A DNA stretch of 64,000 bases from Asterella californica (lineage: Eukaryota > Streptophyta > Marchantiopsida > Marchantiales > Aytoniaceae), in assembly GCA_036924285.1 (NCBI GenBank), contig JAYKYS010000019.1, positions 3,410,001-3,474,000 of the forward strand, given 5' to 3'. The notes beneath the pieces are model-generated. The model saw only the letters and a program-made list of their open reading frames with translations. It was not told the origin of the DNA and ran no database searches. This document shows positions 2,871 through 62,911 of the stretch, one piece after another; position 1 is the stretch's first letter, and the number at the start of each line of letters is the position of its first letter. A program made the position numbers and the translations under genes.

Positions 2871-3096
2871 TTGTCTCTATGGCCGTTTCTGCTAAGTCTT
2901 TAGTTTTTGTGGCTAACCATCAACGCTGCAATATAGCATTGTACAGTTGGTGTGTAGGCCACTGGAAACGATAAGCGGTAAAATTTATTCCAACGTTCAA
3001 ACAGAGTGCCAACGGCAAACTGTAATATTTATTCCAACGTCTTCGAAGTCTTGTTTCCTAATACATGACAGAAGAAGCTAAGAAGCGTTGGAAATG

Positions 3097-4269
3097 CTAC
3101 AGTACAGACATTGCTGCTGCCATAAACAAACTGTTCTCGGTTGTGTGTCCCAAGATGTCTTCCGGTTCCATTCCAGCACCCCGGCAAGTAGGGACGGAGA
3201 GCAGTCTCCCTCGTCTACAGTCAGAACTACAGCACCTCGTACTCCGCTTCTCTCTCTGCAATGACAGCATAACCCTAGTTAGGCAAGAAGCAAAGAAAGT
3301 AATGAATGCAAGAAAGAAGACGGCAGAGTACATTCCATCGCTCGCTGGACTGTTGTATCTTGAATTAAAGCTGCAAAGAAGAATGAATTCAGGAAAGACT
3401 TCGACTGCTCTGAAGATTGGGCAAGGATGAGCAGGCGGGGAAGGCAGATCCAATGAGCGCTCCTCCTCCTCAGGAGTGAGGTTGGTGAAATAGCGGCGGC
3501 GGTCATCACGCTTCGAGAAGAAAATTGTGTCGATATCTGTCATGGTGATCATTTCAGGATGGACAATAGATTTCCAAAGTGCCTAGCTCCTCGCTCGTTG
3601 AATACCATTACCCATCAACCATTTGCAAGAAGGAGCATACTTCTCACAACGCACCATCGATCGCAAACAAATGCGGAGGGTACTGTCCAGAGGATGCCGG
3701 CATCTATACTTATTAAATTGCAAAGCACGCTGCAGAATATTGTTAGAGTTTAATTCGACCCTGTTTTTGGTATCAGCGGCCCCTAAAAGACGGAACAACT
3801 CATCTCCATCAGCAAGCATACCATCGGATATATTTTTCATGCAACACTTGTGATGTATCTCACATTTGTCTTTCATACAATAACCTATCATACCTACAAA
3901 AGTATGAAGGCCCCTGTTGTTAAACCTCTTGACGCATACCTCCCCTCCAAGCGGTCTAACAGTCCCCTTCCAACCCAACACTACTAAGACCCTGTTTTTT
4001 ACATCGATAGGGCTCGTAGCCTGCAAACACAAAACTCCATGGATGTGCAGATGGAATAAAGCTCCCCCTCTTTCCACCGAGATGAGAGCACTATCGCAAT
4101 GTTGCTGCAAAAAAGCACACAAACATCCCCAGCAAGAAAGGTCCAAATCGGCACCGATTTGAGCAACTGTCAGAGAAACCTCAAGAGTTTTCAGAGGTTG
4201 TCCTCTTCTGGAGCGAGGAACTGGAGGATTGCTCGCACGTCTGACGCGAGCGGCTTGTCTCATTTGCAT
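3097..4269 (-). pseudogene. Replitron-type HUH (Rep) endonuclease, decayed
   Basis: HUH endonucleases nick single-stranded DNA by making a 5'-phosphotyrosine link; Replitrons are eukaryotic transposons that encode one. From the ATG at 4269 the frame contains a basic lead, then SVERGGALFHLHIHG, with the histidine pair at residues 73 and 75 (4036-4053). GYCMKDK follows, with the candidate catalytic Tyr130 at 3880-3882 and Lys133. An ILQR helix and a conserved C-terminal block come next (ALWKSIV...DIDTIFF...RRYF). An in-frame TAG at 3583-3585 interrupts the frame between RARS and ALWK; the same frame resumes directly. Frame identity after about 3470 is unclear. No helicase is seen. A TAG stop lies in frame a few codons upstream of 4269, so any N-terminal part would need an intron. 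Family assignment rests on motif order recognised by eye, not on a search. A host-domesticated gene is unlikely given the stop. Confidence 0.65.
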
Positions 4270-4589
4270 CGGACGGAAACAAGAAGTGTTTACAACCTAT
4301 CATATAAATCCTTGTGTTGATAATCTTGCACACACACTTCAAAATGTTCTGCCTGTAGACAGAAGTAACAACAGGCTTCAAAAGGGTCTCATCGTCCTTG
4401 TGTCTAAGAAATTTTGGATAGCAGAAAACAGTAGACCTGCTGTCTTTGAGAATGAGCCAGGAACCTTCGAATTGGACATAAAGAAAAGGACCAATTATGC
4501 AGTGAAAGCACTGACTAGCCCCGGAGAAAGCATACGATATTTTAACGTAATCCAAATCTGGGAGAAGGAATTCAGGGGACTTTAAACAA

Positions 4590-5577
4590 AAATGGAAATC
4601 AACGTATATGTAGCTTCTACTGACTGCGAACAGTCCCGACGTGAAGCAAGGTCGGGTAGAAGCGAGCAAGGAACGAAGACGTGAAGTGACCGAAGGCATG
4701 AAGCATGAAGAAAAGACGAGAAGCGAGGTGGCAGAAAAAAGAAAGAATGCAAACCGTGAAAACCTCCCTTCAACGGCGGGACAAGACGGCAAGAAGACCA
4801 TTTGGCTAGCAAAATGAGTACCACAGACACGGATGAAACAATCGACGAGAAATCGAAAGGAAAGACGAGAAATCGACGACATGAAAATCAGAAAACCACT
4901 GCAAGTCGTCGCCCCGCCCGCTCCGCTGGTCCCACATCGTGAGCCAGCACCTCTTTCCAGAAAGAAGTGGTGGCTCACGACGACTCTGGTTTCTGACTCC
5001 TCCCGCTCTCATCCCGACGACAATAACCGACGGCAATCTAAACCTAATCGACGAAGCAAAAACAAGCAGCGGACGCATTTACTCTCGTGAAGTAGAGTCT
5101 GACGTCTCAACCGATCCCACGTCCTGACAGTCGAAGAATCACCGAACACGAGTGGTCGCACCTGCAGAAACGATACCGAAGGTGCAGATAGACGACGAGA
5201 CGTCGGTGCACAGACGTAGAAAGAGAAGCGAAAAAGCACACAGGCTGCAGAGAAGTACAAAGAGAATGCGATGAGGACGAAAACCAGGCAGGCTGCTGAT
5301 AGTAGGAAAGGAAGAAAGAGACAACGACAAGAGAATGATAAGAAAAAAAAGACCACGTGTAAACAAGCGGCAGCAAACTGCCACGATGCGCGATGCAAAA
5401 ACTGCACAAGAAGCGAGAAAAAAGACTAGGCGTAAACAAGCGGCAGCAAAGTGCCACGATGTGTGATGCAAAAACCGAGTCCGCTAAAGAGACGGCAGCG
5501 GACGATGTTCTCACTCACGCCTTCAACATGCATGCTGCACGATGGAGTAACGCCCTCAACGGAGAAAAAAGGTAAAT
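4590..5577 (+). pseudogene. Lys/Arg/Glu-rich coding relic, frames broken
   Basis: The plus strand is purine-rich and every plus frame gives charged K/R/E-rich peptide, for example MSTTDTDETIDEKSKG from the ATG at 4814. No frame stays open for more than about 90 codons. Two copies of a roughly 46-bp unit (5359-5404 and 5431-5476, 72 bp apart) encode AAAKCHDARCKN-like peptide, which suggests internal protein repeats. It lies divergently from the HUH relic at 3097-4269. It may be a rearranged N-terminal part of that element or another transposon protein. No family is recognised. Confidence 0.35.
4938..4981. repeat. Imperfect 20-bp inverted repeat beside the HUH relic
   Basis: CGTGAGCCAGCACCTCTTTC pairs with a nearly exact reverse complement across a 4-base loop, with three mismatches. 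It could be a subterminal hairpin of the neighbouring HUH element or chance. The element's termini are not defined. Confidence 0.5.
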
Positions 5578-14501: not shown

Positions 14502-17500
14502 CTACTGTGAACGGTCTGCTTCAGGAACCATATCAGAAAGGACCAATCTGGGCGCTGTTGAGGCGCTGATCAGCCAACCTCTCAAACTTTCACCTCGGGC
14601 CATCCACTTCCCAGAATCGGCAGAACGTCTGAATGGCGCCCTAAGTTTGACAATTTCTTTCTGCACCGCATTTCTTAAGGTGGAGGAACCTTCTTCTTTA
14701 CTCAGCTTTCCCCATCCTGTGACGACAGAAACTAACGGTGGACACAGCAGACCAGACTCCGATCTTCCCCTTGCGCCCGACTCCTGGTCAGCCAGTACGT
14801 CTTCCAGCCGGGGAAGAAGAGGGAGCAGCAATTCCACCTGAATGGTACTTTCAAAGCTGAAATTTCTGCCTTCCTCATCTGAGATCTCGTCTTGTTTCTG
14901 CTCTACCTCACGGGCACTACCAAAACTTCCATCCTCCACAACTTTCTTGCTCTTAGCCAACTCCAAATGTTGAGCAATTATAAGCAGCCGTCCCAACCAT
15001 TGGTAAAGAGCGACCAAGGCAGCCCCAGTAGACAATCGTCTCAGATCCAGTTTCCACTCCTGTGAATGAATGAGGCATATGTCATCGAAGAGGCCTCTCT
15101 CCATAACCCACGCAACAACCAAGGTGGCTCGGCGGTACCAGCCTAAAGCCCATAGAGCATCCACCAGTGCACATGTGAAAATTGTCCAGGTCTTTATGTC
15201 CTCCTTGTCCAGTAGTGAGTAGAGCTTGTGTATGTTTCCTTGCACCTATACGCACAGATAAAATCTATGGAGTAAAACGCAGTTCAAATGTAATGCATCG
15301 ACTGCTGTCGCACGACATAGTCGAAGTCGACGACTCACAGATAATGAAATTCAGTTCATCATGCAGCTATTATACTCACACCTGCGTTAGGAGATTGAAC
15401 AATTTGCGGCATGAGTTCAATACAACAGTTCGACCGGCATCACTATCAACCAACTACAGAGGGGATCAACAGATACTAACCTCTTCATCGCTCGTCATAA
15501 TCTCCAGCAACATTCGGCAAGAATTCTTTATCAACGCGAAGTCGAAGGCTCGGAGAAACTTTACAAGGACGCATGCATCTTCCTCACTGCTGCATTTTGA
15601 ACCTAAGGCAGCAAGAACAACGCTACATGTGACCACGTCCGGTGAACAGTTGACGGCCAACATATCAAACTGTATGTCCGACACTCTCTTTATACGTCCC
15701 GACTTGATGCAAGCATCTATAGCCTCCGTAAACACGTGTTCATTGCACATCGCTCCTAGCTTGGCTTCTTCATACACTGCAAAGACCTATACAAAACGTT
15801 GTAAATTAGTACCTTGAACACACTTCCTCGTTATTCTGCTCGACTAGGATACTAACACCTTCCAGATGGTGCAGTATCTAAGAACTCCCTGAGCCAAGCA
15901 AAAGATATGTTGTACTCCTGCTAACCTACTATCGAGTGCAAAAAGGAATCTCATGGACCTCCAGGAAGCACTCGCCGGTACCTCCCTTGACGAAGAGTTA
16001 TAGAGTCAGTCATAAGACCAGCAAATCAGCCAGTGTCTTCGATAGCTTCGTTCCTCATATTTTGACTAGCCTCACCTCGTCATAAGCTCCCGAAGCCTTA
16101 TACGCTGACATAAGACTCGCAGCAGTTACGCTGGTAGGCTGAAGGCCAGCTAATCTCATTTCTTCGTACAATCTCTTCGCTGATAAGGAATCACCACATT
16201 TTTTGTAAAGATCGATCATCGAGTTATAAGTGACTACGTTCGGCTCAACTTGGAGGTCTTTCATGATTTTAAACAGCTTCTCGGCTTCATCGTATACGCC
16301 GTCGCGAGCACATGCCGTTATCAACGAGCTGAACGTGACGGCGTTGGGTAGGCAGTTGTCAGCCAACATCTCGCTTAGCAGCAGCAAAGCATCGCTGCTA
16401 TAACCTGAAAAGCGTATACCAGTTGGAGAGTTATTAGTTTAGTCTAAACGTTGTACAGCAAACCTCATGCCGATGTTAAGTACTTCGCTCTTATTCCTCT
16501 GCACACACCAAGTTGCAGTAGAGAGATGGAAACGACCTAACCACATAGAGGCGAAAATGACTTGCGCACGATGTACTGTCTAAACCAGAACCGAGAACCC
16601 ATCCGACGATGTATAAGGCAAGCAAAGATAAGAGAAGAAATCCCTCTTATATGAAGCAAACCAGGATTTACCGGCATTGGCGTAAACAGTGATCAGAGTG
16701 GTATAAGTGACAACGGTGGGCTTCAGCGCCCTTTTCTTCAAATTGTCAAAAATCTTCTGAGCTTCTTTGACGTGCCTGCCGGAAACACAAGCTTCAAGAA
16801 GAATGTTGAAAGAAACAATATCAGGTTCAATGCCTTGTGTGTACATATCCTTAAATACTGAAACCACGGTTCCGAGCCCCATGCCTGCTTTGACATAAGA
16901 GTTCATGACAATGTTGTAAGTCACAATGTCAGGTTTGTATAAGCTATTCTTCATAGACTCGAAGAGATCCTCCAGTGGCTCAATTCGCCCTGCCTTGCCT
17001 CGAGCGTTGATCATCGCGTTAAATAGTGCAACATCCTTCTCTACTTCAGAATTATTCACGCTACTAAATACCTTTTCAGCCAATTCCACGCAACCAGCCT
17101 CTCCAAGAGTGTCAATTATTGTAGTGTATAAGTGCGGATCCAGCTTGCACCAGCCCTGCCTTTCCATCCATCGTACAACTTCTAGCGCACCTTCAAGATT
17201 ACCCTGCTCACCTACAATTTGCATAACCGCATGTACTATCCGAGCTACTTCCGAATATGGTAGAAACCTACCTGTCGGGCAATGGCCACTACCACTAATG
17301 TTCCTTATCGCAGTTCCTAGCATGACTGAACGGTCTCGTCTAGAAGCAAGCTCTTTCACCCACTCGCTTAAAACTTGTCCAACTAACTTTACATCCTCCA
17401 GATTCAGGATATTGTGTACGAGATTCCGAACTATCTCCCTCCTACGTTCGAGCTTCTCCTTCGTAACGCCGTATGGCATGCGCTGAAAGGCATTTCCATT

Positions 17501-17524
17501 GTTGGTGTAACTCCTCCTAGTCCC
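14502..17524 (-). CDS. P-class PPR protein with C-terminal SMR-like domain
   Basis: PPR proteins bind organellar RNA; PPR-SMR members (GUN1, pTAC2, SVR7 and SOT1 types) act in chloroplast gene expression. Four exons join in phase: 17524-16672, 16404-16076, 15786-15481 and 15245-14502 (stop TAG). All boundaries are GT-AG; two acceptors are TATAG. They give about 743 codons. Exon 2 starts after a TTTGCAG acceptor, so an upstream exon with the start codon and transit peptide is missing; the first internal Met is at 17479. Repeats of about 35 residues carry standard motifs (PDIVTYNIVMNSYVKAG, PNVVTYNSMIDLYKKCGD). The last exon has an ALVDALWALG block, then LDLRRLSTGAALVAL, where family members usually have LDLH, and VVTGWGKLSKEEGSSTLR typical of plant SMR domains. 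Loss of the His may affect nuclease activity. The exact orthologue is not assigned. Confidence 0.85.
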
Positions 17525-17534
17525 CTGCAAAGGA

Positions 17535-18800
17535 GAAGTGATCCTTGCTAAGGTTCATAAGCGGAAAAGACTACTGCTACTGACCACATCAGAATATCAA
17601 TCAAACTCGTAACTAAAGATAGTCTAGATTAAGACTTACTACGTAGTCTGACTTGAATCCAAGGAAGAAAAGAAGTGAACGGCCAGACCAGCCCTCACCG
17701 GATATGGGAAGAAGAAACTGGCAGCTTAGTTACTGACATCTATCAAACCCCTAATGCACCATGACTGAACACGTGACACCGACAGCACTCGCAGTCAATT
17801 TCGTTCTGCTTGGCTTGTTCACAGTCTATGACTCTTCTACTAGAATCAAGATCCTTAATTCTGCTGCAGCACTATCCTGAGCTAAACGTGAGTGATCGAC
17901 AGGCATTCAATCCAAAAGATGTGTACATAAGCAGTGCTGACGACTGAATTGGCAACAGATGTCACTAATTCTGTCAGGATGGCACGAAGCAAAAAACGCA
18001 CCTGTAAACACATGGCTGCTGTGAGCGTATTTCTAATACATGTCAAATATGGCCTAAACGTGTTGGCCTGCAAAGCACATCGAAGAATGATAAGCACGCA
18101 CTCCTGCACATGAGATTCCATATTGACTTCAGTCTTCGAGAAGCCTAATAGGAGACTCTACACACGAGATACTCGTACCATATTTGCAGTAAAGCTCCAG
18201 TTTCAACCGAGATCTATAATTGTTGCTGTAGAGCAGAGGAACAGAGCTCAAACAGCTCAAAGTATAGATTCGATCGGATACTGGAAAAACTGAGAGAGCC
18301 CGTATGAACGTCCGCAGCACTGCCCTCATGTCCGGTCACGCGTCCAATGTCCGGTACCAAAATGTCCATACCCCGCTGATGCATCTGGTCCGTCACACCG
18401 CTAGGGGCGAATTCTGCAATCTCCTTCACTGAAGGACCAGCTGCTGAGCATCATGTGACCTCACGGGACCTATGCATATGCTCGTAGGGTCGAAGTTGTG
18501 TGAAACATACAATCAAAGTTCGAAGGGTACTCAAGAATAGAGCTTTGAGCTTTGAGTTGAGAGAGAAATATATTGTTTTGGGAAGTTTAAGAAAAATTCA
18601 AAGTTGCTATTAAGAATACATCAAAAGTATTCTTCGTAAATGTGAAGCATTATAAAACAAGATTTACCAAAAGAATATTTAAAGTATTAAATGTAATTTT
18701 TAAAAAATTATAAATTGATTGTAATGATTAGAAAAAGATAATTAAAAGTTAATAATCAAAAATCTTTCATATATTTTTAATATTTTCGCGATATTTACCT
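17535..18800. other. Upstream region of the PPR-SMR gene; AT-rich from about 18530
   Basis: The missing 5' exon, 5' UTR and promoter of the minus-strand PPR gene should lie here. An ATG-initiated stretch (MSVTKLPVSSSHIR) at about 17740 ends at a CG|GTGAGG site but joins out of phase, so I do not adopt it. From about 18530 the sequence is AT-rich up to the LTR border. Confidence 0.4.
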
Positions 18801-19649: not shown

Positions 19650-21165
19650 ATGAATCGCTTTAGGAGTCGCAGCAGATCGGACCGTGAAGCCTTGACTGTC
19701 GCACGAAACAGTCACGCCGTTACGCAGGAGTCTGCAGCCCGTCGCCGCGAAGTAGAGTCGCAACTGCAGGTCGGATTCACGACTTGCAAGGGTGGGGACA
19801 CGAACCGATGCCGCCGCGGCGAGGGAAAGCACAGTTTGGAGTAGGCCGTCCCGACCGCCGCCGCCCTCGAATCCATCGTTCCCGACTCCTGTCGCGTCCC
19901 AGACGCCGTCGGGCTATGAACCCCAACCCGCCGCCTCCGGAGCCTCGGTTGCCGGATCTTCTGTAGGTCCGGCCGAACCGCCGACCGGGGGTCCAGCGTC
20001 AGCAACGCCCCCGACAAGTGCCGAGGTCCGGAAGACACTCCAGGACGTGGAGGTGTTCTTGTGAAACCTGCGAGCCCGATTTGGAGTTGCTGGAACCCCC
20101 CCAACACCGTCACCAGACTCAACTGCGCCAGCGCCGGCCCTGGCGTCTGTGCAACCGGACGCACTCGCGAATCAGCCCACGAGAGCAACGGGTCAGGCAG
20201 CGCAGCGCACTGATCCGAGCGCACTTGGCACAGGTGGTCCCGATGGAGGATCCAGCAACTCGAGTAGTTCGAGCTCAAGGGAGCCTAGTACCGACAGCAA
20301 TCTGAACGGCCGACGATCAGGAGAGAGGAAGCGCCATCAACGGGCGCCATCTCTTGAAAAGCCACAAGAGTACTTTGGGGAGCCCTCACTCCCCAAGTTC
20401 GAACTTTGGGTGGCAGCAATGGAAAATTACTTGAGCCACTACTCAAAACGAGGACGGTTCGCTTATGCTGTGAGTCGACTGAGGGGAGACGCATTGAAGT
20501 GGCTTACCAACTATCAGAGGGAGCGGATCAACAAGGGGAGGCCCGAGCTCAACACTTGGGAGGAGCTCCGGGATCGACTCAGAACCTACTTGGTCACTCG
20601 CAACGAGTACAATCACTACCGGCAGGAAATGGACGGATTGAAGTAGACGAGAGGCATCAGGGAGTACAGTCAAAAGTTCGGACACTTGTGGAATGCATTG
20701 GCGCTTACGGACGTCAATGAGAAGAAGTACCTCTTCCACCAGGGGCTCCAAGGTTGGTACAGCTACGAGATGATCCGATTTGGGTGGGACAAGCCGTTGG
20801 AGGATTTATGCGCCCACCTAGAACTTCTGGAGACCGACCGACAAAAAGAGAGAATGGGGGAGAAGCCGAGGGAGGCTCGACCCTTTCGCAAGTTCCGAGG
20901 AGGTTCCAACAATAAGGCCCGAAGGTCTTACAACCCTGCAGGAGGTCAGGGCGGACAGCGACCAGCGCTGCCCGTAGCGCCTGGCCGGAGACCAGCGACC
21001 GGAGGTCAGCGTCCACCCGAGCGCCGACATCAAGGAGGAGGAACCGCCCGCGAGAACCAAAGGCCAAGGAGGGGATAGGGCGGAGGACCCCCTAGGAGCC
21101 CGCCTAGACCGAATGCACCGTTCGCAGTTGCAGCATCCCGAGGAGATGGTTGCTACCACTGCGGC
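19650..21165 (+). pseudogene. Ty3/gypsy gag, three in-frame stops
   Basis: Gag coats the element RNA. One frame (phase of 19792) carries the whole protein: a Pro/Ala/Ser-rich N-terminus, TPPTSAEVRKTLQDVE, a Ser/Arg linker, then the capsid-like block LPKFELWVAAMENYLSHYSK...LRGDALKWLTNYQRER. An Arg/Gly-rich tail follows and the start of a CCHC knuckle, GCYHCGR. The frame is intact except for TGA at 20062-20064 and TAG at 20644-20646 and 21076-21078; the sister copy at 33821-35890 has Arg, Gln and Gln there. The sequence breaks off inside the zinc knuckle near 21165 and abuts a minus-strand gag piece. Protease and polymerase are missing. Confidence 0.85.
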
Positions 21166-25344: not shown

Positions 25345-27060
25345 AACATTTCCAAGTTGTAATATTGACGTTGTATTAGTCTGCGACTCAATCGTTTCCA
25401 TTCTGGTTGAGCGCTTCTATGTAGTTACCGACCGCGAAGAATCCATCGACATATCTGAAGGATTTTCTGAGGTCTTAGAGTCTTGTTGATGTCTTGTGTC
25501 TCCTTGGAGAGTAAAAACTCGTTCTAGGGGAAAAAATTGAGTGGAGAAGAGACAAAAGTAAAGATCTTTTTGCTCTTATTGGTCCACTTTTGGACCAATG
25601 GTGTTCTAGCTGATCCTCGCGACGTTTCTGTGGTTTTTGGAGGCTTCGGAGGTCCATTCGCGAAACGAAGGGTATGGTTGGAGAGCCCCGGGGCTACAAT
25701 CTGGCTGAAGAATCGATTGATTTGATGGAAGGATGAGCGCGTTATGATCGATTGAGTGGAAGGGGGTACAATTCGTTCCTACCGTGACGTTTCTAGTTGT
25801 TTCGAGAGACTCGCGAAGAGTTTTGAGGAGCTATCTGTTGGGTTGGAGAGCTGACGACGTGCTGGTCATTTTGATATCAATTTCATCAGGTTCTTGATCG
25901 ATTTGGATTTTGAACCGACCGATTGAAATTGAGAAGTGCAGACGTGATAAGGCGAGAACAGCGAATAGTCATGGATAGGTTGCTATTGCTTAAGTTCTGA
26001 GTCGAATTTCTGAGTGAAACTTTCCAGGATTGAAGCATGTCTTATCAGTAAGATACTTGAGAAGTTTCACCTCAAATGGTCGAGTAGTTTGTTCAGAATC
26101 TTGGATCAAATGTATCTGGGTCTGTAAAGCTCTGAAGTTAGCACAGATTACGGTTTGATCCATATCTGAGAATTGGTTTAAGATTTCGACCTGAAAGTTA
26201 TTCAGGGTAGGAGTGAAGGGTCCAATCAAGCTTCCTGTGAAGTTTGATCATCATTGGTCGACTGGTTTGAGAGGACTGAGATCTCAAAGTTCAAAGATAC
26301 TTTTGTTATTAGTAGTTTCGGGTTTTTTGGTATCATCTATTGTCAATTTGGTCATTTTTGAGCAATTTGGAGAGGAGTTTGTTGCTGAAACTGCCATGCC
26401 TGCATACAACTCGACATTGGAGGATGTGGGGCTGATTTCAGCTCTTGGTGATGAAAGAGAACGGAGTCGTCATGAATCTTAAGCTGTTGTTTGGGTTCTC
26501 GGAGCTGCTAGGTATTATCGCCGTTGGTGCTATATTGAGATCTGAGTAGTGTCTTAGAGCATGCATGCTTTACCTTGCTGGAATGCTTGGTAGACCAGGG
26601 TATACATCAAGTTGTATCGATACTCTATCAAGTTGATTGAGTGATCTTATAGCATCTTTTGGTTGTACTATGAAGTTGTGATAGTTGGATTGATGGGCAA
26701 TTAGCATCGCTGGGGAGCTATTCAGAAGTCATGCTTCCAGTGATATAGAGGAATAACTTCAATTAGATAGTACAGAGCTGAGTATTTTTAGTCAGAGTAC
26801 AAAAGATATGTTTGTAACACAAGTTTATGCAACCTATACGTATCTTGGATCGTAGCAAGCTTTAAACTTGAGCCGAGCGGATACAAGGTCACTCGGGCTA
26901 GAAGAGTAGATAGTGAAACATTTGAGTGGAAACATCCAAATCTAGATCCAACCTTGTCAATCTACATACCTCTGCACAGCCATATACCCAGTGTATTCCT
27001 AGATAGAAAAACACGTTATACGATAGCTGGTGAACTCGACGTGAAAAGTCTAGGGTGAGA
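25345..27060 (+). repeat. Leader repeat unit B (about 1.7 kb)
   Basis: Diverged counterpart of 22634-24250, in the same order relative to a leader ORF copy. Its last 146 bp (26879-27024) recur almost exactly at 29156-29301. A short frame there (RRVDSETFEWKHPNLDP...HSHIPSVFLD) is shared between the two copies and partly by unit A, so this end may have been coding. Confidence 0.5.
26879..27024 (+). repeat. 146-bp direct repeat, left copy
   Basis: Starts GGATACAAGGTCACTCGGGC and ends ...CACGTTATACGAT. Nearly identical to 29156-29301, and the pair flanks the gag-protease relic. It is too short and in the wrong context to be called an LTR with confidence. Confidence 0.8.
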
Positions 27061-27065
27061 GGTAC

Positions 27066-29190
27066 GTGTGTGGTTTTGCCACCATGGACATTGAAGGGTT
27101 GGATAATTACGTAGATGAGACTTCTACATCTGGAGAGGTTCCAAAGGTGACCAAGCTTTCACGATCTGTTATGCGATTGCTTGAGACATTCGCGTTGGTA
27201 ATGCAACAACAGCAAGCCAATGAACGGAAAGAAGCAATGACTACTAAAGTCTTACAATCTGTTGTGGGGTTGCTAGATCAGTTTGACGGGAAGAACATAT
27301 CCAAGTACCTAAAGTACTATTCCCGAGAGATGGAGTTGAGTAAGGTGCTAGAAAGAGAAATGGTGAGTACATTTGAGCTTGCTGTCGTACTTGAGCTACG
27401 AGAGCATGTGAAAGACATCATCCGATCTCATGGTGCTACATGGAAAGGATTTACTCTTCAACTCAAAGAAGAATATTCTTTAAAGGATGCAGACCGAGTG
27501 ACTAAGAAGTCATTCATGGAGTGGGTAAACAAACTCAACGGCAATCAAGGGTGCTACTGGATGGGATGATCCCGTGGATACAATGTCTGTTCATGCTTAT
27601 TTGGCGAAGAGTCAACATGAGGCTCTCATGGAGGAGAAACGCAAACGAGATGAAGCACGCCCTAGCGAAGAGAGAACAACTCTCAAGAGACAAACAAGAG
27701 GAGAAAAGTTCGACCGGAGATGATGTCTCTACCAGAGGAGACTATGGAAGAGGTCATATCCTCTACTCCTGAGAAGTCAGAGAAGAGCAGAGAGGAAAAG
27801 TAAATCTCCTTCATACAAGCTTCAATCTGATATTGAAGCTGCTACGGATTTGAAAGGAGTATTAGAAAAGAGAGTACTCAATGCCAAGATCGAGTTTACC
27901 TTACGAGAAGTTCTTGGGATTGCCAAGAAGGAGTTTCATGATGTCATTATTGACACCATCAAACGAACAAGGCAATTGGCAGGGGAAACCGCTGTGTCTA
28001 ATGCATTAGACACAAGGATATCAAGAGAAAAAGAGTTAGAACTAGCTCAATGTTGCATCAACCGCAAAGTTCGATTTGAGGATGATAATGATGACAAGGT
28101 CTCTAGTCATTACACTAGAGGACATTGGGCTAGAGCTACTACCGAAGCCTTAGTGAAGGTAGGAGAGATGACAGATCCGGTGGTTGCTCTCATTGATCAT
28201 GGATCAGAGATCAATATTGTCTCTAAGGACATCTACAAGCAAGGTGGATGACCTGTTGATATAGATCATGGTTGGATGATCAGAACAGCGAACAACACAC
28301 GAGGAGAACTCTATGGAGCTTGTCTTGATGTGAGAGTGAAGATTGGAGATGTAACTATAGAACAAAACTTTTTTGTTCAAGATAGTACATCATACCTCGT
28401 GATGGCTCAACCTTACATTACAGCTGTGAGGATGGAGACCAAGGTTTTGGATGATGGATCTGCTTATGCGCGGATCAGAAGTCAGGATGGCAAGAGAGCG
28501 ATACAATTTCTAACTGTATCAGCAAACCACGAGCGGAACAGAGATTATCTGAGGGGTGGCTCTTTGCCTAAGGTCACGGAGGAGTTCAAGGATTTTTGAC
28601 AAGTACTGCTATAGAGCGAGGACATAGTGGTACATTGGAGAAGGTACTCTCGCTAGAGAAAGAAAGTGCTTTTTGTACAGGAGTTGTGAGATTTTTTAGG
28701 AGTGGATTTGCTACACATACACGACTTGCTGATTTGCAGAAGTGGGAGCAGAAGGTTGTGCGAAAAACTAAAAAAGACCTAAAGAGAGTTGGTGTGCTTG
28801 AAGAGGATGATAAGATAAAAGGTGTTTATTTGGAGTTAGGATTGGGAGATTTCATCGATGAACTTGCTATGCATGAGCAAGAAGATGAGGATCATGTGGT
28901 GGAAATACACTCTAGGGAGCTCTATACAACTATAGAGTCATTCGTAGATCCTGAAGTTAGAGTTGATACTAGGTACAAAACGGTAGACAAGAAGGTAAAA
29001 CTTGTTGCTCAGCCATTACCTAGTGATTCTAACCAGCGAGTCCAACAATCTTTGAAGGAGAAAAGCTTAAGAGATCTTAGCCGGGTCGGTCACAAGTTCA
29101 CTGAAGCTACGCTCAAGGAGTTGAAGGTTGGTTCTGCAGATTTTCTTTTGCCTGTGGATACAAGGTCACTCGGGCTAGAAGAGTAGATAG
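27066..29190 (+). pseudogene. Second Ty3-like gag-protease lineage, truncated before RT
   Basis: Unlike the neighbouring gag family. The parts in order are a helical gag lead with LLDQFDGKNISKYLKYYSREME (27066-27555); after a frame shift, a charged linker; SDIEAATDLKGVLEKRVLNA and EFTLREVLGIAKKEFHD; then a retropepsin-like domain with ALIDHGSEINIV, where Asp-[Ser/Thr]-Gly is expected and His replaces the second residue. A TGA at 28249-28251 stands where Trp is expected; the same frame continues to 28599. The 28596-29186 frame (YKTVDKKVKLVAQPLP...HKFTEATLKEL) resembles the segment that precedes RT in fungal and bryophyte Ty3 elements. RT, RNase H and integrase are absent: the sequence runs into a 146-bp repeat and then foreign gag. 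Confidence 0.65.
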
Positions 29191-29301
29191 TGAAACATTT
29201 GAGTGGAAACATCCAGATCTAGATCCAACCTTGTCAATCCACATACCTCTGCACAGCCATATACCCAATGTATTCCTAGACAGAAAAACACGTTATACGA
29301 T
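29156..29301 (+). repeat. 146-bp direct repeat, right copy
   Basis: Partner of 26879-27024. The 3' end of the preceding frame runs into it, and gag of the first family resumes within a few bases after it. Confidence 0.8.
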
Positions 29302-29304
29302 TGC

Positions 29305-31315: not shown

Positions 31316-32690
31316 CTATTTCTGGATCCTCCTTGGAATCTGCAGGTCATCGGGGACAAACTTCTTTAAGTTCGAAATGTGTATGATCGAGTGATAACCT
31401 GACATGCTTGAGGAGGAATTCAAGTGATAACTTACAGGTGTAACCTTCTTAAAACTCTCGAAGAGCACGGCCCATCTAGGGATGAACTTCCCTGTCATTC
31501 CTTGGGGAATAGAGTAGGCTTTAGTCTTTAGCCAAACCCTGTCCCCTACTTCTAACTGCACATCTCGCCGTTTGAGGTTAGCATATTTAGTGTACCTCGC
31601 TTGTGCCTTAAGGATATTTTGTTTGGCCATGTGTAAGACATACGATCTTCTGCCTAGAAACTCAGCAACATTCAATGGTGTTTCCCTCATGGCATTCTCA
31701 AACTCGGGCGACTGCAACTGAAAGCTGACGGGTGACAAGGGAGACTTATTATCTCTATAGACCAGCTCGAAAGGTTTGTATCCCGTGACCGAGTGCAATG
31801 CGTCATTGTACGCAAACTCTACTAGATCCAGATGGTCGGATCAATCCGACTGGTCCCTTAGCATGTAGTTTCCATCCCCTGCTCTATGACCTGGTTAACC
31901 CTTTCACTTTGCCCATCCGTTTGCGGGTGGTAAGCAGCAGTGAATTTCAATCGGGTTCCTAAGCTAGAGAACAGCGCAGTCCAAAACTCGTTTGCAAATC
32001 TGAAATCATTATCGGCTATTATCTCTTTGGGAAGTCCATGATACTTGAACACATGGGTCAAGAACAACCGGGCAACTTCCGAGACTGAGATCAGGGTAGT
32101 ACAGAGTATGAAGTGAGCCATCTTGCTCAACCTGTCTATTATCGTCAGTATGCAATCATATCCGTGGGAAAGGGGAAGTTGCGGGATGAATCCATCGTCA
32201 AACTCTCCTAGAGGTTCTCGGGCACTGGTAAGGATTGCAGTAACCCAACGGGCCTCTGAGTATCCGGCCTGGTCTGCTGACAGACCAGGCAGCTCTCTAC
32301 ATACCTACTCACATCTTGACTCAAAGTAGGCCAGTAGTATTTCTGCCGAACTCTGTGTAGTGTCCTAGCCTGACTCCCATGACTGGCAGAGGGAGCATCA
32401 TGCTCCTCATAGAGCACTCTTGCTCTTAGGGGTCCGGGCGGGATGTAAAGTCTACTTTGTTTAAAGAACCAGCACCCCTCTCGCTTGCTAAGGTGCCTCA
32501 TCCCCGGGTCTGAAAGATCTTGGCTAGCCCACTGGGCAGCCTGCGGATCCAAGGCTGTGGCCCTCCTCACAAATTCCACTAGGCTAAACTGTGGAGCCGA
32601 GGTTAAAGCCATCACTTGTCTGGAGAGGGCATCGGCCGAGGCATTGTCCTTGCCCTTCCGATACTTCCAGGTGAGGTTATACCGGGACAA
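31316..32690 (-). pseudogene. Ty3/gypsy integrase, frame broken
   Basis: Integrase inserts the cDNA into the host genome. The 32690-32208 frame begins with the end of RNase H (GKDNASADALSRQ). It then gives the zinc-binding N-terminus (HDAPSASHGS...CLVCQQTRPD) and stops where Trp is expected. After a shift, the core reads HGYDCIL and DRLSKMAHF (32170-32100), IIADNDFRFANEFW, and HPQTDGQSERVNQVIE with the catalytic Glu. The C-terminal part (31798-31316) has VGDRVWLKTKAYSIPQGMTG and IIHISNLKKFVPD. No chromodomain is evident. Breaks near 32208 and 31850 make it non-functional. Confidence 0.85.
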
Positions 32691-33203
32691 CTCAAGATGC
32701 CACCTCTACTATTTAAGTGAGAGCTTGGGTTTAGTCTGAAAATATATGTTGGATATGTTATCTGTCACTACAGTTACCTCGCAAGGCAGAAGGTAGTGTT
32801 CCCATCGTTTCAGACACCAAATGACAACTAGCATCTCCTGTTCGTGGGTTTTCCACCTAGCCTCCTGCTCACTCAGTCTATGGCTCTTGAAAGCTACCGG
32901 ATGACCTTCCTAGATCAACACACCACCTATGACCAACTTCGATGCATCGGTGTGGATCTCAAAAAGCTTTCCCAAGTCAAGAAGTATAAGGACCGGTGCT
33001 TCTGTCAAAGCCTTATTCAAAGAGTCGAAAGCTTTCTGTTGTGACAGTCCCCACTCAAAGCTTTTCTTCGAGTCTCGAAGTAAGTCGAAGATAGGGGATG
33101 CGAGGTGGTCAAAGCCTCGGATAAACTTTCGGAAGTATGAGGCAAGGCCCAGAAATGACCGAACCTCCGAAACTGTTTTCAGGGCTGGCCATGACCTGAT
33201 TGC
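32690..33203 (-). pseudogene. Ty3/gypsy RNase H region, decayed
   Basis: Between the RT and integrase frames the minus strand gives pieces of the usual tether and RNase H, for example WEHYLLPCEVTVVTDN around 32795-32750, a stop, then RYNLTWKYRKGKDNASADAL. Stops and shifts break the frame several times. Confidence 0.65.
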
Positions 33204-33812
33204 CTACACCTTCCTCTTGTTTATATGGACACTTGTATGGTCGATAAGACACCCAAGGAATACTACACTTTCCTGCCCAAATGAACATTTAGAAGCTTTG
33301 AGTACTAGCTTCTCCCTCTCTAGTTTCCGAAACACAGCTTCCACATCGGCTAAGTGCTTCAGCCAGGTAGGGGAATAAACTATAATGTCATCCAAATAAA
33401 CGACTACTGAGTCGTCCAGTTGGTCCCGGAGTATATCGTTTATTAATCGGCAGAAAGTGGCTGGGGCATTCGACAGTCCAAAAGGAAGCACTGTGTATTC
33501 GAACGGGTCGTATCTGGTAATGATTGCCGTCTTCTCCTCATCACCCTCGGCGATCCTAATCTGGTGATACCTTGATCTAAGGTCGAGTTTAGTAAAATAT
33601 CGATCCTTAACTAATATGTCCATCGTTTCATCCATCAGTGGAATAGGATACTTGTTTTTGATTGTGACCTTGTTCAAAGCACGGTAATCTCCACATAAGC
33701 GTAAGGTACTCTCCTTCTTACTCACGAACATTATGGGGGTAGCATAGGGTGAACAACTGGGGCGTAAGATCCCCTGCTCAACCATCTCCCCTAGTTGTGC
33801 TTTGAGTTCTTA
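33204..33812 (-). pseudogene. Ty3/gypsy reverse transcriptase
   Basis: Core RT motifs are all in one frame: MVEQGILRPSCSPYATPIMF, LRLCGDYRALNKVTIKNKYP, FTKLDLRSRYHQIRI, FGLSNAPATF and the catalytic VVYLDDIIVYS. Upstream, a TAA at 33810-33812 stands before ELKAQLGEMVEQG, where Gln is likely, and a frameshift near 33840 separates RT from the gag-protease frame. Downstream the frame ends at 33204. Confidence 0.9.
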
Positions 33813-33820
33813 TAGCAGGT

Positions 33821-36030
33821 TCAAGGGCATCCGCTGGCACCTCCCAACTGGTGGGGCGGAGCCGGGATAAGATCTATCTTCTGATCAATCGCCCTTCGCG
33901 GAGGCAGGGTGTTCGAGAGTTTTTCGAGAAGAAGGTGCGAGTATTTAGCTAACAACTGCTGCATTTCTTTTCGGATCGGCAGTTGGGCTACTCGATCTTC
34001 TTCATCGACTTCCTCAAGAGTTTTCTCCGGCAACACCATCCATGCCTCTTCCACTCCTTGCATAGACTTCTTGAACTGTCGAGCTGTGCATACCATGAAT
34101 GCAACTCGACAAGACATATATTGGAGAAACTCGGCGGGTGACTGAGTTTGGAGATCCACCTCTAGTGCAGTACAGTGGTCAATGCCTCGGAGATCCTTTA
34201 ACCACAGATTTTCTTCGGTCAAGTCTATACAGGCTAAGTTTTGCCGAAGCCAAGCCCAAGACAGAATTCCCTCGGTCTTCCCTAGTGGCATAACTAAGAA
34301 GTCATGGCTACGGGTGATCCCAGCGCACTCAACCGGTAACCGTGGTACAGTATGAGTCACCTTAGAAGTACCTCGGACAAATCTGACTATAAGAGGCGAG
34401 GCTAGTCTCTTCGGGGTGAGGTGTAGGTCTAATGCTGTACTCGAAGACAAGACACTGATATCGGCTCCCGTGTCTACCAGCATACGTACTACCCTCCCCT
34501 TGATCCCAACTTTTATCCATGGCAAGTATGCAGGCAGTTTCGAATTACCTCGATCCGCGGTCGGAGGTGCATCTCGGATCGGTGCCTCTCCTCTGTGAAC
34601 TTCGAACTCTGCTGCATCAGGAACAGGTTCTTCAGCCGCGGCTGCCTTCATGTTCAAGGCCCCCATTCGCGCGAGGTATTCTCGGACGAAGTGGCCAGGT
34701 CGATCACAATGGTAACATCCATCAGTACGGGCCGCGGCAGCAGGGAACAGTGGGTTTGGTCGGGGTGGACCTCTCGGCTGTCCCCCTCCTTGGTCTTGCC
34801 TGGGCCGCTGGTTGCCGCGGGCCACTCCTCCACCTTGTGGCCTACGATCGGGTGGCCGCTGACCTCCGATGGCAGGTCCGCGGCCGGCTGCTGCTGGTGG
34901 GGGTGCGCGTTGTCCACCTTGGCCTCCTCCCGAATGATAAGGCCTCCTAGCTCGGTTCTCGGATCCGCCTCGAAACCTCCTGTAGGTGCGAACTTTCTTA
35001 CTCTTCTCCCCAGACTTACCTCTCTGGCGGTCGGCCTCGAGGAGTTCGAGATGTGCGCATATGTCCTCCAATGGCTTCTCCCACCCGAATCTCGTCATTT
35101 CATAGGAGTACCACCCCTGCAACTCCTTATGGAACAGATATTTCTTTTCATTCCCATCCGTAAGGACAAGAGCATTCCACAGATGCCCGAACCTTTGGCT
35201 GTACTCCCTTATGCCTCCAGTTTGCTTAAGGCTATCCATTTCTTGCCTACAGTGACTGTATTCATTGCGGGGCACAAGGTATGTGCGAAGTCGATTCCGC
35301 AATTCTTCCCAGGTGTTGATCTTTGGCTTGCCCTCATTGGAACGCTCCTTCTGATAATTGGTCAACCATTTGAGGGCATCTCCCCTCAGCCGACTGACAA
35401 CATACGTGAATCTGCCTCTCTTAGAATAATGGCTAAGATAATTTTCCATTGAGGCAACCCATAGTTCAAACTTGGGGAGCGAGGGCTCCTCGTAGTATTC
35501 CTGTGGCTTCTCAGGTGAGGGTGCGCGTCGGCGTCTTTTCCTCTCACCTGACCTCCCTCCGGATCGACCACTACTCGGCGGGCTACCTTTCGAGTCCGTC
35601 GAACTCTCAGAACTATCACCTGGATCGTCTGTTCCGACCGCGTCGGATACCGTCGGGGCACCATCGGTCGGATCGGCGGCAGGCGGCGGTGACGGTCCCG
35701 GAGCCGGCGGCTGACTCGCGTGAGACGAGGCTGGCGGAACCGGCGATTGTCCGTTCGGAGCATCAGCCATCCCGAATCGCGTGCAGAGGTTCCTGAGGAA
35801 CAGTTCGACGTCGTTCACTGTCTGTCTTAGTTCTGCACTCGTCGGCGGTGTCCCCGAATGGGCTCCACTCGAGACCGCGGCGGCTGGCACAGGCAGTGAA
35901 GCAGCCTTCGAACCTCCGGAGTCGGTCGGTCGAGGGACGTAATCCGTGGGTGTGTGCGATGCGACAAGGCTGGGAAACCCTGCGTCGGACGATGGGGGCC
36001 GTGAGAGCCCTGCTCTCGGATGTCCCTTCT
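33821..36030 (-). pseudogene. Ty3/gypsy gag-protease, long open frame
   Basis: One open frame of about 690 codons, open further upstream to about 36030. In order: TPPTSAELRQTVNDVELFL; a Ser/Arg linker; the capsid-like block LPKFELWVASMENYLSHYSK and DALKWLTNYQKERS; EDICAHLELLEADRQ; an Arg/Gly-rich basic tail; and a zinc knuckle CYHCDRPGHFVREY, in which the last Cys of C-x2-C-x4-H-x4-C is replaced by Tyr. The retropepsin follows (MLVDTGADISVLSSS, near 34450-34485). The frame runs into the start of RT and is then lost. Length and order match plant Ty3/gypsy polyproteins. The leader ORF copy 3 ends just upstream. Confidence 0.85.
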
Positions 36031-36032
36031 GT

Positions 36033-36427
36033 TTACGTGATATCGATTATCTCGCAATAGAAATCCTCACCAAAATTTCTAATCACAAACTCTCTATGTA
36101 ACGATTTTGGTCTACAGACATAGCGGATCTCCACCCACGTGTTGAATGAAACAAGAGCGGGTAGGTTTAGATCCATGCTCATGAAATCAAGGTATAGACG
36201 GTCAAATCTCAACTGGCCGCATATGTCACTACTGGAAGAATCACCGAGACTGGCGAATTCATCACTTGACCCATGAAATCGTAACCAAAATGATAGACAA
36301 GATACACTCGAAAATACTCACGACGTAGATACATAAGTTTGATGTGGAAAGGATTCAAGAATGATAATTCTGGAGCTGGAAATCTATCCCCATCCATCAC
36401 ATAGCTCTCTTGATCCTTTCGACGCAC
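36033..36427 (-). pseudogene. Leader ORF, copy 3, directly upstream of gag
   Basis: The minus strand reads MDGDRFPAPELSFLNPFHIK, HFGYDFMGQVMNS and VILPVVTY. After a TGA and a frame change it continues MDLNLPALVSFNTWVEI, RPKSLHREFVIRNFGEDFYC to a TAA at 36033-36035. It aligns along its whole length with copies at 22249 and 25123. Here the gap to gag is essentially zero, so it lies between primer site and gag in the same orientation. The family is unknown. Confidence 0.6.
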
Positions 36428-36501
36428 TCATAGTTTCAATTGCCCGGTACCTCGATCAAAGGTCCTTCTAAGAGAGATAATCCGTTCTCTTGGAGTTCTC
36501 T

Positions 36502-36513
36502 GTTCTGATACCA
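36502..36513 (-). promoter_or_regulatory. Primer binding site, minus strand
   Basis: On the minus strand TGGTATCAGAAC lies two bases after ...ATCTTACA. It differs from the canonical TGGTATCAGAGC at one position. Confidence 0.65.
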
Positions 36514-36514
36514 T

Positions 36515-36924
36515 TGTAAGATGAGCTCTAGAGTGAATTCACAACTCGAATGCTCGTGGAGGTGCATTCGCATCCTTTATATAGTGAAAGGAATAGTACA
36601 TGATAAGCTCTCGGGCAATGCTGACCTCTCAAAGTGAGCACATGGATCGCTGACGTGGCTTACATGCAGCCTTAGATCTGAAACAACATCTAGAGGGTTC
36701 AGAATGAACCACGTAAGAGCTCGCTGGAAAGTTCTCAAAACTTCATTCCAGAAACTTCCTTCTGGAAGTTTCTCGGCGGACTTTTGGCACACCCGTCTAT
36801 TGACAGAAGTACTATTTTGCTACATGTATTCTCAGGCCAACTTAGCCGTAACTAATTCTTATACCAAAAACTTCTACCAAACCAATTTCCCCTCTAGTTG
36901 ATAAGTAGAGCTCTACTTATTACA
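36515..36924 (-). mobile_element. Candidate 5' LTR of the minus-strand element
   Basis: Read on the minus strand it begins TGTAATAAGTAGAGCTCTAC and ends ATCTTACA, one base before the primer site, about 410 bp in all. Its right border cuts an integrase frame at 36930. No second copy is recognised at the left end of the gag-pol relic, so pairing with the 31.3-36 kb gag-pol is an inference. Confidence 0.5.
36902..36921. repeat. Perfect 20-bp palindrome at the LTR edge
   Basis: ATAAGTAGAGCTCTACTTAT is its own reverse complement and lies just inside the TG end of the candidate LTR. Confidence 0.85.
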
Positions 36925-36929
36925 CATGT

Positions 36930-37630
36930 CATCCCGTAAGGTATTGAGTAAGCCTTAGTCTTCAGCCACACTCGATCTCTCACCTCCAACTAGACCTCTC
37001 GATGTTTTTGGTTAGCATACTTCGTGTACCGAACCTGAGCCCTCAAGATGTTTTGCTTAGCCTGATGCATTATGCAAGACCGCCTATCTATAAACTCAGC
37101 CACATCAAATGGAGCCTCCCGAATAGTTGCTTCAAATTCTGGGGATTGCAACTGGAGACTAGCGGGAGAGAGAGGGGACTTTTTCTCTCTGTAAACTAAC
37201 TCAAACGGTTTGTAACGCGTGGTTGAATGCAGAGAGTCATTATATGCAAACTCTATGAGGTCTAAATGAGTGGACCAATCGGACTGATCCCTTAAGATGT
37301 AGTTTTTGACCCCTTGTTCGATCATCTGATTCACTCTCTCACTCTGCTCGTCTGTTTGGGGATGATATGCAGCCGTAAACTTAAACTTTGTCCCCAAACC
37401 AGCAAATAATGCAGTCTAAAAGTCATTGATGAACCGAAAGTCATTATTAGATATTATCTCTCGAGATAAACCATGATACTTGAAAATGTGAGTCAAGAAT
37501 AATTGAGCTACTTCCGAGGTTGAGATAATGGTAGTACATGTCACGAAGTGCGCCATTTTGCTCAGCCTATCTACAACGGTCAAAATACAATCATACCCAT
37601 GTGATTGGGGCAACTGTATGATAAAGTTGT
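36930..37630 (-). pseudogene. Ty3/gypsy integrase fragment, older copy
   Basis: The same integrase family as 31316-32690. One frame holds LPQSHGYDCILTVVDRLSKM, IISNNDFRFINDF, a TAG at 37416-37418 where the sister has Trp, AAYHPQTDEQSERVNQMIEQ, FELVYREKKSPLSPASLQL, and a TAG at 36990-36992 where the sister has Gln, ending at KTKAYSIPYGMT. The left edge is cut by the candidate LTR and the right edge by AT-rich DNA at about 37630. Both edges are breakpoints. Confidence 0.8.
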
Positions 37631-43079: not shown

Positions 43080-44859
43080 ATGTCTTGGCAAACACCACAG
43101 CAGCTCGGCCAGCAGCAACAGCCGCAGCAGGACCTGGCATCTCATTTTCATCTGCTTCCAGTATCCTCTTTCATATTTCTTAGTATCCCCTTTCATATTT
43201 CTTTTAGCGGAGTAGCTTGTTGTGTATTTAATTTATGTATACTCTCAGCAATGTTATCGACGGTTTTAAAGCACATAAGTGTTACAGTCATGAGTTAGAA
43301 AACGTTTTGTATATATTTATATGTGTCAACTTGTTGCTTCGACAAAGAAACCTTTGTCGACGACAAAGGTTTCTTTGTCCTTGACACCTGTTGATTTCTT
43401 CGTGAAATGAATGTAAAGATATCATCTTTCAGTCGTAACTTTCTGATGAGTATCTGCCATAAGTTGACGAACCTGGTTAGAGCTAAAAACCAAGGCGCAG
43501 AAGGTGGTTAGCAATGCTGTCTGTACACTCTATTGTGTTTATTGCCGTCTCCATAAAATGAATTCCAACCTCTTGTTTGTCTGTAGACTTAGTCAACTGA
43601 TATAGACAGGGATATCATGATGAAGACTTTAATCTGACGATAGTCTTTTGACGTCTCGAAACAAGTGTTCAGCTGAGTCCACGTTTGAGACTGAACTGGC
43701 CACTTTATTTTCTTTCGCACGTCAACAGCTAATAACAGCTCCTACTACAGTGTATTGACCCTTAACGTTTGCAAGGTCATCGAATCTGCAGCAGATGCAT
43801 TGGAGAGAGGAGCGGTGGACCAGCACGTGAATGAGCTGGTATGTCTATCAGGGCTGTAGAACTTACTGCTGTGATTATTGACGAGATGACATTTGCATTA
43901 TTAACAAAGCTGGAAGTCTCACTAGAGTCTTCTCTGACCAGGTACTGAATTTATTTTTCGCACAGGTTAGTGATCTTGCCGCTCGTTTCGAGAGATGCCA
44001 ACAGCTGTTGAATAACATCACGATCACCACTAACTCAAAACCTGTGGTGCGTACGTCGATTTCTTTTACTGTTGTTCAAGATTTTCGAACGGTCGTTCTC
44101 ACTCTACTTTTCGAGCGAGACTGTCATCCTATATTTCCTCGAAAGGTTAATACTTGCAGTACATCCCTAATAAGCTCTGTCTTCGAGGATGCAGACACTT
44201 CGTTGGCAGAAACAGAAACTTGAAGAATATGAGAATCAGCTCAATTTAAGGAGGTAAGACGATGTCTATGCACATAAGTTCTTTTGACGATACCGTTCTC
44301 TCTTAGGTCCAAGTGGAAAATACATTGGATTTCAGTTTAGAGTGAAAGGTTCACTTTCGTGGTGGTTGTAGAGCAAGGACCTGAGACACAAGACGCTGCA
44401 GGCTTGAACCATGGACTAGGAATAGGAGTCAATGCACTAACAATCGTGTGATGTCCGTATGAGTTCTATGACGATAGACTTATGGATGTGGGACTAACAA
44501 TCGTGTGATGTCCGTATGAGTTCTATGACGATAGACTTATGGATGTGGGACTAACAATCGTGTGATGTTCGCATGAGTTCTATGACGATAGACTTATGGA
44601 TGTTGGGGGAGGCGTGAATTTATCAGGCTGACATTGTTGGCTATTGTCATCTTCAGTGATTTGCTCTTGGAATACAAGACGATGGTGGAGCAGGTTGTAA
44701 ATCCAGATCATTGATATTCGCCAGCGTTTAGTCTGCTTAGGAGGAATCACGGTGAAGTTCACGGCTTATAGACATACAATGGTCTTTGGATGGAGGAGTG
44801 GGACCTTGGGTCTTCGCCAGTTCTATTTAAGCCATTGTACATTTCTCTCCCACAGTTAG
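43080..44859 (+). CDS. MED9: Mediator complex subunit 9 (MED9)
   Basis: MED9 is a small middle-module subunit of Mediator, linking transcription factors to RNA polymerase II in the nucleus. Exon 1 is 43080-43160 (MSWQTPQQLGQQQQPQQDLA, then SHFHLLP), matching the Gln-rich lead and the SHFHLL motif of plant MED9. Exon 2 is 43776-43838 (VIESAADALERGAVDQHVNEL). Exon 3 is 43966-44046 (VSDLAARFERCQQLLNNI...), matching the family's NEL...F-KCQQLLNSI core. All three are in phase with GT-AG borders. A fourth exon ending at 44253|GTAAGA encodes MQTLRWQKQKLEEYENQLNL. Its start is uncertain (perhaps 44175 with the exon 3 donor at 44050). The last exon probably adds one residue and a stop after the acceptor at 44855; an alternative acceptor lies at 44306. 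Residues expected between HLLP and VIE are not found, so a microexon may be missed. The protein, about 100 residues, is short for the family. Confidence 0.75.
43341..43379. repeat. Perfect 19-bp hairpin in MED9 intron 1
   Basis: GACAAAGAAACCTTTGTCG and its exact reverse complement are separated by a single base. Confidence 0.85.
44436..44606. repeat. Tandem repeat, three copies of 57 bp, in the last MED9 intron
   Basis: Copies start ACTAACAATCGTGTGATGT at 44436, 44493 and 44550. The first two are nearly identical; the third has a few changes. There is no coding meaning. Confidence 0.9.
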
Positions 44860-61557: not shown

Positions 61558-61879
61558 CCGCTCACTTCGGTCTTCCAGCATCCTTCTCAAATTCCTTCCT
61601 TCTTCTCCACAGCCAAGACTCTAGCCCACTACTATTGTGTACTGTAGTGTTTTTAAGTAGGACTACTAAAACTACGAGTGAATACTGGTTTTTCATTTTC
61701 TTTGAGAGAAGCGTACTCTGAACTCTCATTTTGCTCCTGGCGACCTCGTCCAGAAGGGTGGTGGTTCGATTGGTTGTACTGAGTTATCACAGGTATTGTT
61801 ACAGAACGATCGAACTAGTTGCTAGAAGCAAAGCAGCTCACTTAGCTCGGTTGGCTCGGTTTAGCTCCGTAGGAGATTG

Positions 61880-62911
61880 ATGGGTTCCATGGCAGCAGCT
61901 TGTCGGCCACTGTACCAAAGAATCACTGCGATGTGGATTCTGCTCTTGTGTGTGCTTGGGAACGTTGCAGCAGGTAATGTAGGGCCGATCTCTTCAGTAT
62001 TGCCGATGAGTGAGAGTGCACTGAATGGCGATGGGGGCATGAAACCTGAGAAATTAGTCGAGCCCGAACCGCTCGTTCTTACTTACCACAACGGGCCACT
62101 GCTCACTCAGCGGGCCAGCATTCCTGTGTATATTATCTGGTATGGTACATTCAGCACGGGGCAGAAGAGGATTATGAGTGACTTTTTTGCTTCCTTCGGA
62201 ACTCCTCTGCCTAAACCGTCGGTTAGCAGCTGGTGGAAGATAACGAGTGGATACACTGCCAGTGGAGCACCGGTTTCTCAGTCTCTGAAGGTCTTGAAGC
62301 AGGTTTCTGATGCTAAGTACTCGAAAGGGAAGGTTCTGAAGAATGCGGATCTCGAAGCTCTGATAGTGGGTTCTCTGTCACAGTTTCCTGCTAATCCTAG
62401 CGCAATTTACTTCATATTCACTGCTTCGGACGTCGATGTGGAGGACTTCTGCATGAACTCATGCGCATCACATTTTGCGACTGAACCGACGGCTGCCACT
62501 GGAAAGATGCAGCTGCCATATGTTTGGGTGGGGAATGCTGTCACTAAATGCGCCGGTATGTGTGCTTGGCCATTCGCTAAGCCTGCGTACGGGCCACCCG
62601 ATGCACCACTTCTGCCACCGAACGGGGACGTGGGCTTGGACGGCATGGTGATCAACACTGCAGCCATGATTGCCGGTACTGCCACCAATCCTTTCAACAC
62701 TGGTTACTACCAAGGTGACGCTGGATACCCATACGAGGCCGCCACAGCTTGTTCAGGAATGTATGGTGCTAATTCTTATCCAGGCTATCCCGGAGATTTA
62801 CTTGTAGACACCGCCACGGGAGCAAGTTACAATGCGGTTGGTGCCAACAAGAGGAAGTTTTTACTGCCTGCTTTATGGAATCCAGCTACGCAAAAGTGCA
62901 CCCCTCCTTAG
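61880..62911 (+). CDS. EXORDIUM/PHI-1 family secreted protein
   Basis: Plant EXO/PHI-1 (phosphate-induced) proteins are extracellular and linked to brassinosteroid- and carbon-dependent growth. This intronless ORF has 343 codons from the ATG at 61880; ATGs at 61889 and later are alternatives. The N-terminus is a signal peptide with the hydrophobic core MWILLLCVLGNVAAG (residues about 18-32). The family signature follows: LTYHNGPLLTQ, VYIIWYGTFS, SVSSWWKITSGY, then the DLEALI region, YFIFTASDVDVEDFC, LPYVWVGN, CAWPFAKP, PNGDVGLDGMVINTAAMIAG, ACSGMYG and GASYNAVGANKRKFLLPALW. Conserved cysteines are present and the length fits the family. The frame is intact, with a TATA box at 61548, so the gene is likely active. 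Which member it corresponds to cannot be told. Confidence 0.93.
   Translation: MGSMAAACRPLYQRITAMWILLLCVLGNVAAGNVGPISSVLPMSESALNGDGGMKPEKLVEPEPLVLTYHNGPLLTQRASIPVYIIWYGTFSTGQKRIMSDFFASFGTPLPKPSVSSWWKITSGYTASGAPVSQSLKVLKQVSDAKYSKGKVLKNADLEALIVGSLSQFPANPSAIYFIFTASDVDVEDFCMNSCASHFATEPTAATGKMQLPYVWVGNAVTKCAGMCAWPFAKPAYGPPDAPLLPPNGDVGLDGMVINTAAMIAGTATNPFNTGYYQGDAGYPYEAATACSGMYGANSYPGYPGDLLVDTATGASYNAVGANKRKFLLPALWNPATQKCTPP

Follow-up and report, generated by a model that had tools for sequence, protein, structure and literature searches.

What did the minus strand between positions 3100 and 4296 once encode, and is the gene still whole? The window, by which we mean the entire 64-kb stretch of DNA that was analyzed, carries at this place a reading frame for a Replitron-type HUH endonuclease (hereafter, the Rep frame) with one in-frame TAG. 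Replitrons are a recent addition to the known transposons; the group was reportedly named only in 2023, in the original Replitron paper by Craig in PNAS. We conclude, with a probability of roughly 93%, that the locus is a decayed copy of a Replitron transposase gene, carried by a complex thalloid liverwort in its nuclear genome.

Results

A long frame interrupted by one stop codon

The Rep frame is open for 237 codons (3583–4296, minus strand); the last three of these positions on the minus strand, 3583–3585, are the TAG at residue 238, and the same frame continues through 3097–3582. Along it, the motifs ERGG..HLHIHG, GYCMKDK, and DIDTIFF follow one another in this order, and the TAG lies between the second and the third. 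The initial annotation had described both the motif order within one frame and a single TAG between conserved blocks, and both were found at these positions.

To gauge the openness of the frame, stop codons were counted in the 699-nt block 3517–4215. The Rep frame contains 1, the other two minus-strand frames contain 15 each, and the plus-strand frames contain 4, 6, and 10. A first-order Markov simulation of the block gave a mean of 12.4 stops, and none of the 5000 runs had one or fewer. This openness is suggestive; taken alone, it is weaker evidence and proves little, because equally long one-stop runs occur elsewhere in the window. Across all 64 kb, none of the 12 longest one-stop runs is shorter than 304 codons (752, 750, 413, 398, and then 370 or fewer), and the Rep frame, with its 398 codons, ranks fourth among them. 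The G+C content at the three codon positions of the frame is nearly flat (0.476, 0.412, and 0.451), with no strong pattern. That the Rep frame is probably former coding sequence is, then, an argument from homology.

An intron replacing the stop was also considered. GT..AG pairs with the AG at the TAG were inspected by eye, which gave two candidates, of 29 and 65 nt. Both candidates would shift the frame away from DIDTIFF.

Profile searches point to Replitrons

When the part before the TAG was searched with hmmscan, it matched Pfam PF21859 (Replitron_HUH) with an E value of 4.1e-13 and 50.2 bits, at a cut-off of 28.5. The match defines an HUH endonuclease domain at 3802–4149 (residues 50–165, profile positions 10–124 of 128). 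The initial annotation had assigned the frame to Replitrons and had proposed a profile search as the check; with a score well above the Pfam cut-off, the search supports that assignment. Replitron_HUH was the sole family listed for the unbroken part at a limit of E 10, a limit at which the filters of the tool drop most matches above about 0.1.

The C-terminal domain matched less strongly. With the read-through frame, in which the TAG was replaced by X, Pfam PF21860 (Replitron_C) gave an E value of 6e-5 and 23.8 bits, below its cut-off of 27. This match spans 3517–3669 (residues 210–260, profile positions 24–77 of 77), ends at DIDTIFF, and has the TAG inside it. The two short pieces that flank the TAG (23 and 25 amino acids) had no profile match when scanned separately. 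No Helitron HUH or helicase domain was matched in Pfam, either by the unbroken frame (limit E 10) or by the read-through frame (limit E 0.1), and searches of the Rep frame against PHROGs and NCBIfam profiles gave no match.

A Riccia sorocarpa protein aligns straight through the stop

A single homologue was found, the 437–amino acid hypothetical protein R1sor_020130 of Riccia sorocarpa (P0122 in the collection searched). With the read-through frame as the query, it was the only protein at E 10 or better among 841 candidates (E 1.4e-67). Its UniRef name begins “Replitron HUH endonuclease domain-c,” and it matches the same two profiles, Replitron_HUH with E 2e-12 and Replitron_C with a subthreshold score of 21.9 bits. 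In a search with the 237–amino acid part, none of the 449 candidates reached E 0.1; that search admits proteins up to 1.75 times the query length, about 415 amino acids in this case, and the Riccia protein was missed because it exceeds this limit.

In BLASTP, 111 of 233 residues (48%) of the Rep frame and R1sor_020130 are identical, with one gap and no frameshift, over residues 28–260 of the read-through frame (3517–4215). The Riccia protein is unbroken, unlike the Rep frame, and aligns straight through the place of the TAG, where it has an amino acid. In the reverse direction, tblastn of R1sor_020130 against the window gave one strong match, at 4215–3517 (E 1e-71), and the runner-up had an E value of 0.37. 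Overlaps of later matches aside, tblastn with the first 118 residues of the Riccia protein found nothing in the window below E 6.3.

Both ends of the Rep frame lie outside the BLASTP alignment. At the N terminus, this applies to a short basic stretch (4216–4269) that runs from the first in-frame Met, the putative start codon; at the C terminus, the tails that follow IFF in the two proteins are excluded. The 138 amino acids past the supported block (3100–3513) have LGT as their sole profile match, at E 0.032 and below the cut-off of that profile. Thus, of the extent 3097–4269 given in the initial annotation, the part at 3517–4215 is supported by homology, and 3100–3513 has this subthreshold LGT match and nothing else.

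The two copies share the HUH pair, the YxxK motif, and the C-terminal domain up to D(I/V)D.IFF. ERGG is common to both, HLHIHG faces NLHLHG, GYCMKD faces GYCLKD, and the C-terminal domain is conserved through DIDTIFF and DVDQIFF. H84, H86, Y139, and K142 are kept in both sequences of this two-sequence comparison. The alignment bears on which histidines form the HUH pair. His73 and His75 had been proposed, which correspond to H82 and H84 of the frame. Since Riccia has Asn in place of the first His in HLHIHG, the conserved pair is H84/H86, the second and third His of that motif (75 and 77 in the earlier numbering), rather than H82/H84. The HUH motif H84-I-H86 is at 4039–4047, and its two histidines, both kept in Riccia (LHLHG), form a putative metal-binding pair; H82 (4051–4053), a little ahead of the motif, is not conserved. 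The YxxK motif with Tyr139 and Lys142 is at 3871–3882 and is likewise kept (YCMK and YCLK), making Tyr139 the putative catalytic tyrosine.

Structure models were too poor to place these residues: the mean pLDDT was 34.6 for the unbroken part alone (208 amino acids) and 41.8 when the Riccia protein was added. Among solved structures, there were only unrelated-looking matches, the best with E 0.095. Two scans of IMG/VR viral contigs found no related locus, one scan of genome contigs found nothing related, and phage records gave no match to the Rep frame. Within the 64-kb window, tblastn and a repeat search found no second copy of the frame.

The window resembles liverwort nuclear DNA

The initial annotation had placed the Rep frame in a plant nuclear genome, and the other genes of the window fit this. 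An EXORDIUM-like gene (phosphate-induced protein 1) at 61865–62911 encodes 348 amino acids with a Phi_1 match of E 2.8e-106. Part of a pentatricopeptide repeat gene (PPR_2, E 1e-38) lies on the minus strand at 16580–17554, and a retrotransposon, probably Ty3-type and likewise on the minus strand, occupies 31493–37610, with a gag and protease open reading frame at 33821–36046 and reverse transcriptase at 33204–33809. The EXORDIUM-like product is closest to proteins of Marchantia paleacea (77%) and Riccia fluitans (78% over 90%). In a tree of 26 hand-picked rows of this one gene, it falls in a four-row clade with M. paleacea, R. fluitans, and R. sorocarpa, with a support of 100/100. In combination with the Riccia homologue of the Rep frame, the EXORDIUM tree points to Marchantiopsida and makes a complex thalloid liverwort the probable host.

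Several repeats were also recorded. A direct repeat pair at 31493–32175 and 36927–37610 (70% identity) flanks the retrotransposon and may represent old long terminal repeats. A second, inverted copy of part of the gag region is located at 20317–21161 and is 71% identical to 34707–35551. Within 26879–29304, two direct repeats of 149 bp, which are 97% identical and lie 2.3 kb apart, may bound a younger mobile element, and 44436–44603 is a tandem array with a 57-base unit, 2.9 copies, and 98% matches. Inverted repeat arms at 1722–2314, 38 nt at 92% with a weaker extension inward and about 590 bp across, may belong to a small inverted-repeat element.

Origin-like signals near the Rep frame

A pair of 30-nt copies, 83% alike and 44 bases apart from start to start, lies downstream of the Rep frame at 2967–3040; one of them reads AAATATTAC on the minus strand and fits the motif NANTATTAC, the consensus for nick sites of CRESS viruses. 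The minus-strand occurrence of this motif at 3030 is unsurprising because the 64 kb contain 10 such occurrences, counting both strands. A hairpin with 21-nt arms that are 90% complementary is located at 4937–4980, some 670 bases upstream of the first Met in the frame. Five 141-nt stretches around the Rep frame were folded as single-stranded DNA and gave z scores of −0.40, 1.20, −0.49, −0.87, and −1.81; the last value belongs to the stretch containing the hairpin, whose folding was equaled or bettered by 10 of 200 shuffles. The origin-like motif and the folding signals were set aside as evidence.

Discussion

As named in passages of a 2023 review, the plant carriers of Replitrons are green algae, liverworts, mosses, lycophytes, and ferns, and not hornworts or seed plants (PMC10741241). 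The same passages give these elements a length of 0.9 to 4 kb, short direct terminal repeats of 5 to 11 bp, and target-site duplications of 2 to 8 bp, and state that annotation software for them was not yet developed (PMC10741241). The locus resembles Replitrons in that Replitron_HUH scores above its cut-off and Replitron_C just below, and the probable liverwort host falls within the carriers named there; it differs in that the copy carries a stop. Since those passages list liverworts (PMC10741241), the Rep frame would be one more copy from a lineage where Replitrons are expected, of a kind already known from liverworts. Repeats as short as those described would not be specific unless a second copy could be compared.

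How an intact protein of this type would act can be sketched by analogy with the HUH superfamily, in which, according to parts of a published account, a tyrosine cuts single-stranded DNA and the enzyme stays linked via a 5′ phosphotyrosine (PMC13231165). An intact Replitron protein would bind the ends of its own element; the His pair, with a metal ion, would position single-stranded DNA; and one Tyr would cut it, staying covalently joined to the DNA during copying and transfer of the element. The conserved His, Tyr, and Lys residues fit such a cutting mechanism. The stop would deprive the protein of the end of its conserved C-terminal domain, and because of this loss, the copy probably no longer moves itself.

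Instead of being defunct, the locus may still produce a shortened protein of 237 amino acids or less, with a whole HUH domain and a cut C-terminal one, that nicks DNA for its own or related elements. The HUH domain indeed lies entirely before the stop (residues 50–165 of 237), the Riccia alignment has one gap and no frameshift, and a single stop in 233 codons suggests that the loss is recent. However, the conservation of the C-terminal domain through DIDTIFF and DVDQIFF suggests that this domain is needed, and we consider continued activity of a truncated product unlikely.

It is also conceivable, although very improbable, that the two copies belong to a group of liverwort Replitrons whose C-terminal domain is divergent, and that the 30-nt pair at 2967–3040 possibly supplies a CRESS-like origin sequence alongside. 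The divergence is proposed because both copies compared score below the Pfam cut-off for Replitron_C. If this were true, Replitron ends would be tied to virus-like nick sites.

A host gene domesticated from a Replitron, as opposed to a transposon copy, would agree with the single relative found in the protein collection. Weakly against it are the stop, which falls within a conserved domain, and the 48% identity to the Riccia copy, compared to 73 to 78% between the EXORDIUM-like product and its relatives in Riccia and Marchantia; we find domestication scarcely credible.

Helitrons, too, are eukaryotic transposons with an HUH endonuclease; they have two tyrosines and a helicase, whereas the Rep frame has one visible Tyr motif and no Helitron profile match. 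CRESS-type Reps also carry the YxxK motif, but to identify the frame as a Helitron, or as the Rep of an integrated CRESS virus or plasmid, is almost certainly wrong, since Pfam lists Replitron_HUH alone at E 10, with no Helitron or viral Rep family, PHROGs and phage records give no match, and two scans of IMG/VR found no related locus.

As a decayed Replitron transposase gene, the Rep frame adds one more liverwort copy to a recently named transposon group, a modest gain by itself, and the likely active His pair of this copy is corrected. With a set of closely related copies from liverworts, the ends of these elements could be defined.
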